Source of the DNA: Halobacteria archaeon HArc-gm2
Lineage (GTDB): Archaea; Halobacteriota; Halobacteria; Halobacteriales; Haloarculaceae
Direction of reading: 5' to 3'
DNA: 64,000 nucleotides
Assembly: GCA_025517465.1 (NCBI GenBank)
Contig: JAOPKE010000009.1
Location: 62,001-126,000 of the forward strand
The translations under genes were made by a program, and so were the position numbers. This document shows, in pieces, positions 35,954-36,553 of this stretch (position 1 is the stretch's first letter; the number at the start of each line of letters is the position of its first letter). The notes below the pieces were generated by a model. It searched no databases. It saw nothing but the letters and a program-made list of their open reading frames with translations, and was not told where the DNA came from.

Positions 35954-36047
35954 GTGGGGTTTGGCTATATGTTCTGGTTGTCAATACACAACTCGGCACG
36001 GTCAGCACGAGCAGTTGCCTGCGATCCACGACGGAGCGGAAGTTAAC

Positions 36048-36057
36048 ACATATATCC
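36048..36057 (+). promoter_or_regulatory. TATA box of the TFS-like gene
   Basis: ACATATATCC lies about 30 bases before the ATG at 36082, supporting that start and a leaderless mRNA. Confidence 0.6.
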
Positions 36058-36081
36058 GACAACCGTGCATGCCTCCGTTAT

Positions 36082-36399
36082 ATGCAATTCTGTGACGAGT
36101 GTGGCTCGATGATGCACACGGAGGGCGACGCGTGGGTGTGTCGCTCCTGTGAGAACGAGGAGCCGCGGGACTCGCGAGCAGAAGCGGCGATGACGACCCA
36201 GGACGGACAGCGGGACGACGGGGCACCCACCGTGGCCGACGCGACCCAGGACACCACCGAGACGATGCAGGAGCCCTGTCCGGCGGACGGATGCGACAGC
36301 GACCGGGCCTCCTACGAGATGATGCCGAAGCCGGGCGGCTCCTACGAGGTTCGGCTGTTCACCTGCGTCGAGTGCGGCCACAAGTGGCGCGAGTCCTGA
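36082..36399 (+). CDS. TFS / RpoM-like zinc-ribbon protein with altered cleavage motif
   Basis: A 105-residue protein with an N-terminal ribbon Cys4/Cys7...Cys20/Cys23 and a C-terminal ribbon Cys66, Cys71, Cys95/Cys98, the layout of archaeal transcription factor S, which reactivates backtracked RNA polymerase by RNA cleavage. The end [11 protein letters not shown] matches the family. However, the Asp-Glu pair that promotes cleavage is replaced by Gly-Ser ([13 protein letters not shown]), and the first C-terminal pair is C-x4-C instead of C-x2-C. It may therefore be a paralogue that binds polymerase without stimulating cleavage, as known for some archaeal TFS variants. A disordered linker (25-62) joins the ribbons. 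Confidence 0.8.
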
Positions 36400-36553
36400 C
36401 GGCGCATCTCGCGAACCCCGCCGCGTGAAATTGCACAGACCGCCACGTCAGACTCTCCAGTTCGATTCACCCACTCGAACTACATTCTCACACACCAACC
36501 CTACTCGCGGGAACCCAACATCGTTTAGACGCTGGCCGGCAACGAAACTTCCA

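Follow-up and report, generated by a model that had tools for sequence, protein, structure and literature searches.

A conserved type of TFS paralogue, in which the catalytic Asp-Glu pair is swapped for another fixed tip, is encoded by a small gene of Halobacteria archaeon HArc-gm2. This gene, the Gly-Ser TFS gene, looks like a mobile passenger and not like a resident paralogue. We suggest, with a probability of roughly 0.55, that its product is a cleavage-dead paralogue that was spread by small non-autonomous IS5-type elements and by megaplasmids, and that it competes with TFS. The window, i.e. the whole stretch of DNA that was analysed, comprises 64,000 nucleotides (contig JAOPKE010000009.1, positions 62,001 to 126,000).

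Results

The open frame is uninterrupted, and its 105-residue product has two Cys4 zinc ribbons (Table 1). The cysteines of the N-ribbon are spaced C4-x2-C7...C20-x2-C23, and this part matches Pfam Zn_ribbon_RPB9 (PF02150) above its cut-off. Those of the C-ribbon are C66-x4-C71...C95-x2-C98, and the widened C-x4-C knuckle described in the first-pass annotation can be read directly in the sequence. The Gly-Ser reported there in place of Asp-Glu was confirmed: G86 and S87 occupy the catalytic D/E positions of L002 both in an alignment with the two canonical TFS proteins of the same genome (G000:C13 and G000:C14, or L002 and L001) and in a gapless count backwards from C95, and the catalytic pair is absent from the tip of the C-ribbon. 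The tip has a single lysine, K83. Acidic residues outnumber basic ones in the C-ribbon (5 K+R versus 7 D+E), but this charge alone says little because the ribbon of core haloarchaeal TFS is acidic as well (5 K+R, 9 D+E).

Table 1. Positions in the window of the Gly-Ser TFS gene, its parts and the surrounding DNA unit
Feature	Position	Strand	Basis
Stretch unmatched at the equivalent site of G191	35965..36477	+	comparison with nearest relative
DNA unit of ~470 bp common to this and other copies; IS5-type ends not recognisable	35987..36457	+	DNA comparison
Conserved promoter-like block, TATA-like CATATAT ~30 nt before ATG	36037..36064	+	comparison of copies
TFS/RPB9-type double zinc ribbon gene with Gly-Ser tip, 105 aa and stop	36082..36399	+	open frame
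N-terminal zinc ribbon, residues 1-31, Zn_ribbon_RPB9	36082..36174	+	38.6 bits, cut-off 25.2
C-terminal zinc ribbon, residues 66-105	36277..36396	+	PF01096 15.3 bits, under the TFIIS ribbon cut-off of 21
Widened knuckle C66-P-A-D-G-C71	36277..36294	+	sequence; C-x4-C also in genus g9 TFS
Tip P82-K-P-G-G-S87	36325..36342	+	alignment and copy comparison
G86-S87 replacing Asp-Glu	36337-36342	+	alignment

The protein scored 39.7 bits with the archaeal TFS model TIGR01384, below the curated cut-off of 64.75, and the two core TFS copies of its genome scored 79.3 and 78.0 bits; one TFS with Asp-Glu from genus g9 also fell under the cut-off, at 61.9 bits. With the TFS4 model NF047723 (cut-off 120) it reached 28.3 bits, about the same as a core TFS (30.8). 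The best four PDB matches by sequence were RPB9 and RPC10 chains, with RPB9 at the top. The AlphaFold model was modest (pLDDT 73, and 65 for residues 81-90). Its top Foldseek matches were RPB9-like, RPA12 and RPC10-type chains, and the TFS4 chain 7oqy_Y was at rank 9. The TM-scores were low (0.28-0.41 in the first ten matches), which may reflect the floppy linker between the two ribbons. A TFS-type match was found in 55 of 59 genomes, mostly two or three in each (E <= 1e-8), and Asp-Glu was present in all 20 core TFS proteins inspected from genomes that carry the Gly-Ser type (14 of type A and 6 of type B). The sampled haloarchaea usually had two canonical TFS genes, which fell into separate groups A and B.

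Matches to the Gly-Ser protein at E <= 1e-40 occurred in 133 of the 392 genomes of the window's order, covering 51 of 95 genera, and the best 80 of 192 relatives in a scan of named genomes were 81-92% identical. Among 196 genomes drawn phylum-wide, for which the share from outside the order was not counted, 11 had a match (E <= 1e-25), all from this order. All frames were open in 97 distinct copies (the window included), 94 of them with 105 residues and three with 104, and residues 82-87 (PKPGGS) were invariant in 94/94 copies of 105 residues; rows L087 and L031, whose starts were not found, were left out. In an enlarged set, from which rows L196 and L218 were dropped, PKPGG was present in 134/134 copies, the next residue being S in 133 copies and A in the remaining one, although 37 copies had been added by a tip-centred probe and the set was thus partly selected for an intact tip. 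The median NG86 dN/dS was 0.22 (600 pairs), third codon positions were the most divergent, and the tip stayed constant while the flanks decayed. This shows purifying selection. Because the frames are open, PKPGG is invariant and dN/dS is about 0.22, the gene is a conserved type with a replaced tip and not a decayed copy.

Broken copies also exist. Stop codons interrupt the gene in G019 (TGA) and in one copy of G390 (TAG); truncated or shifted copies were found in G223, G138, G158 and G290 and as a second copy in G132, and fragments lie on plasmids of Halobacterium and Halorubrum. All these degenerate copies, including the plasmid fragments, are outside the 134-copy set. On the Halobacterium salinarum plasmids NC_002608.1 (pNRC200, 274921-275076) and NC_010369.1 the fragment corresponds to residues 1-52 with no listed gene, and that on pNRC200 sits between the ISH8E and ISH27-2 transposase genes.

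The copies lie at sites that are unrelated to one another, some of them on megaplasmids, and their neighbours differ. Full or near-full copies (97-100% of the query, 82-92% identity) were present in 18 plasmid records, with carriers that include Halomicrobium, Halorussus, Haloplanus, Haloferax and Natronosalvus. In the records inspected the gene was mostly annotated as 'DNA-directed RNA polymerase subunit M', which conceals both the mobility and the altered tip. We compared 14 genomes that have both genes (91 pairs, 87 of which cross families). The Gly-Ser copies were closer to each other than the core TFS genes in 90 of the 91 pairs (medians 0.81 versus 0.635), and dS was lower for the Gly-Ser copies in all 89 usable pairs (0.28 versus 0.87). 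The identities of the two genes correlate (Spearman 0.53), and this suggests that some vertical descent is mixed with the transfer.

No gene family recurred in more than nine of 78 loci (up to 10 kb) in a search for a recurrent partner or a defence island, and the neighbour families that did recur were mostly at scattered distances. The best matches were weak in PADLOC (E 0.67) and in PHROGs (E 0.025). Since the neighbours vary and the matches are weak, we rejected the idea that the gene has a fixed partner or belongs to a defence island. Carriage by viruses was likewise rejected: the phage collection gave no match, and the four pattern-matching stretches in viral contigs do not encode a relative. 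An RNase J-type gene lies about 0.4-3.3 kb from the Gly-Ser copy in L048, L085, L012/L033 and L186, with a fragment in L097, and macro-domain, DUF5786 and amphi-Trp genes are near the copies at a few loci.

The window gene is flanked by a TRAP-type transporter gene and upp, both recognised by eye. DNA similarity of other copies to the window stops within about 35987-36461, the window's own locus aside; between other pairs of copies, same-site close relatives aside, the shared DNA reaches at most from about -422 to +683 relative to the start codon, and the alignments that reach into the flanks keep about 85-94% identity. In G265 the two flanking genes are just ~114 nt apart and the site looks empty. 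The nearest relative, G191, whose upp protein is identical, does not offer a clean empty site, because a different stretch of ~620 bp is present there. Several hundred bases of other sequence also occupy the site in G059, G103 and G172 (the sequence of G172 was inspected). Rfam and sigma-70/terminator scans of the window site gave no result. The exact CATATAT was found in 64 of 97 copies, and in 60 of these it precedes the start codon by 29-30 nt. Because this upstream block is conserved, each copy seems to carry its own promoter and probably yields a nearly leaderless mRNA.

Inward repeats of the GGCTCTGTTGAA type were found on both sides of six copies at four independent sites (L015; L050/L053; L061; L094/L185) when 134 distinct copies were scanned with up to 2 mismatches within 800 bp of the copy. 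All six are flanked by imperfect 8-bp duplications, in which 5-7 of the 8 bases are equal and none is perfect. Most Gly-Ser copies have no recognisable ends on both sides. None were found around the window copy; we infer from its relatives that it was once mobile, with IS5-type ends. The GGCTCTGTTGAA motif had first pointed to IS6-family ends. This idea was dropped because at L077 a complete element with ends of this kind, bounded by a perfect 8-bp duplication, codes for a transposase of the IS5 family (NF033579, 1.4e-71). The window's own genome holds a 46% relative of this element, the ends of which have 3 and 1 mismatches, with no clear duplication.

Within 800 bp of 97 copies there were 24 inward ends against a shuffle mean of 3.8, 8 outward ends against 4.0, and 5 two-sided cases against 0.025. 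The one-sided enrichment is unspecific: the control region 2-2.8 kb away had 10 inward versus 2 outward ends (115 kb), compared with 24 versus 8 near the copies (154 kb). Because inward ends are also common at that distance, it is the two-sided copies with repeated flanks that carry the argument.

A Haloferax larsenii mini-element of 591 bp (L019:6968-7559), which has IS5-type ends and is flanked by a perfect 8-bp duplication (GAAGAAAT), lies ~1.7 kb from a Gly-Ser copy; its passenger frame is lipoprotein-like by eye and has no Pfam family. L008, L051, L057 and L059 have a short inverted-repeat insertion (TACGGTTTGCTGTA...CCGTATGA type, by eye) just past the TGA of the TFS-like gene. Longer units in L106 and L020 include broken hydrophobic frames beside the TFS-like gene (...LAAGIEISLDLFGIKTLAELQR, L106 minus strand), which are perhaps the remains of other cargo.

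A possible source of the gene was found in genus g9, which has six genomes and belongs to the window's family. The resident TFS of this genus has both Asp-Glu and the C-x4-C knuckle in 6/6 genomes, and the knuckle was seen in 0/20 other core TFS proteins inspected. A gene of the Gly-Ser type lies upstream of this TFS in two of the six, at a distance of 72 bp in G187 (GTG start, tip PEPRGS) and of ~360 bp in G392 (small frame between, tip PKPGGS). The gene downstream of the window genome's own core TFS has a relative downstream of TFS in all six g9 genomes (29-41% identity), and the place of the g9 TFS is considered native because of this common neighbour. No IS5-type ends were found in the two tandem stretches searched. 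In a tree of 58 rows, with few columns for that number, the Gly-Ser copies, the g9 TFS and the g9 tandem copies formed one group (99/97), separate from core types A and B. In the simplest reading, TFS was duplicated locally in a g9-like lineage, and the new copy lost Asp-Glu before an element captured it; our trust in this origin is moderate because the tandem copies are long branches.

Discussion

Binding of the Gly-Ser protein to RNA polymerase is likely, because in sequence and predicted fold it groups with RPB9, RPA12, RPC10 and TFS. Loss of RNA cleavage is very likely, because substitutions of Asp/Glu in TFIIS cut cleavage sharply, as described in an excerpt of PMC4026522. Among the possible consequences we favour competition with TFS on the polymerase, because TFIIS D290A/E291A serves as a dominant negative (in part of PMC11122683) and TFS1 and TFS4 compete for RNA polymerase (in the section of PMC8448823 used here). 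The protein would be made from its own promoter and its N-ribbon would dock on the polymerase as that of TFS or RPB9 does, so that a tip unable to activate cleavage would enter the funnel. Competition with the host TFS proteins would then leave less rescue of backtracked polymerase, in a natural counterpart of the dominant-negative TFIIS mutant, and the unit would be mobilised in trans by an IS5 transposase.

The first-pass annotation was right about a TFS-like factor without Asp-Glu, but its analogy with inhibitors of the TFS4 kind has been weakened by the missing tip lysine cluster. According to the relevant portion of PMC5715097, inhibition by TFS4 needs three tip lysines and is lost when alanines take their place. 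A homologue that does not cleave is therefore not necessarily an inhibitor. With these lysines missing, TFS4-type inhibition appears less likely. We consider it quite unlikely that the gene encodes a direct RNA polymerase inhibitor, perhaps a virus- or stress-induced shut-off gene on mobile DNA. Asp-Glu is missing as in TFS4, the gene is patchy and apparently mobile like many defence genes, and there is a weak match to the TFS4 model. However, the score is far under the 120-bit cut-off and about equal to that of a core TFS, PADLOC offered no convincing match, the phage collection had none, and none was confirmed in viral contigs.

An RPB9-like accessory subunit, which would bind stably and alter start-site use, fidelity or termination with TFS left unblocked, agrees with the best PDB sequence matches and with the description of RPB9, in the same portion of PMC5715097, as a paralogue that itself lost cleavage. 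A subunit is not usually so patchily distributed or apparently mobile, and the host retains two canonical TFS genes, which makes this role unlikely. It is very unlikely that the gene has no function and simply rides on a repeat element, with its conservation due solely to recent spread. The 85-94% identity of the flank-reaching alignments and the broken copies would fit such a history, but the dN/dS of about 0.22, the greater divergence of third positions and a tip that is invariant while the flanks decay do not.

A tentative and rather improbable extension of the favoured reading is that the transposon passenger acts as a natural dominant-negative elongation factor. With its PKPGGS tip it would tune or stall the host RNA polymerase, and haloarchaea would have acquired it repeatedly through IS5-type mini-elements. 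It could serve them as a transferable means of dormancy or of defence against viruses, or it could benefit the element itself. In the open-licence literature on haloarchaeal TFS paralogues, TFS mobility and mini-elements (titles and abstract starts), no paper among the matches listed concerned a TFS that is mobile or of the Gly-Ser type. The part of PMC5715097 cited above mentions that tfs genes have multiplied in Halobacteria, and the non-cleaving TFS paralogue with a described function there is the lysine-tipped TFS4 of Sulfolobales. The Gly-Ser type is a separate, apparently mobile type with another invariant tip, and it occurs in genetically tractable haloarchaea. Such a type would open two questions to experiment: how an elongation factor behaves once Asp-Glu is replaced and not recharged, and why a transposable unit carries a polymerase-binding protein.

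Among known systems, archaeal TFS (TIGR01384) has in common with the Gly-Ser protein two Cys4 ribbons, a similar N-ribbon and equal length, and the two copies of the same genome are 47% and 38% identical to it. In contrast to the TFS tip Q-I-R-x-A-D-E, the Gly-Ser protein has P-K-P-G-G-S, a loop one residue shorter and the C-x4-C knuckle. TFS4 of Sulfolobales (NF047723; PDB 7oqy) is likewise a TFS paralogue without Asp-Glu, but its C-ribbon is described as highly positive (same section of PMC8448823), whereas the Gly-Ser protein has an acidic ribbon, no tip lysine cluster and apparent mobility. Eukaryotic RPB9 belongs to the same family of double ribbons and has lost cleavage, as the Gly-Ser protein very probably has. 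It is a polymerase subunit and is not known to be mobile, unlike the apparently mobile Gly-Ser gene. At four sites the Gly-Ser unit resembles non-autonomous IS5-type (MITE-like) elements in its ends of the GGCTCTGTTGAA type and its imperfect 8-bp duplications, but most copies have no such recognisable ends on both sides; unlike those elements, it bears a conserved protein gene and a promoter-like block.
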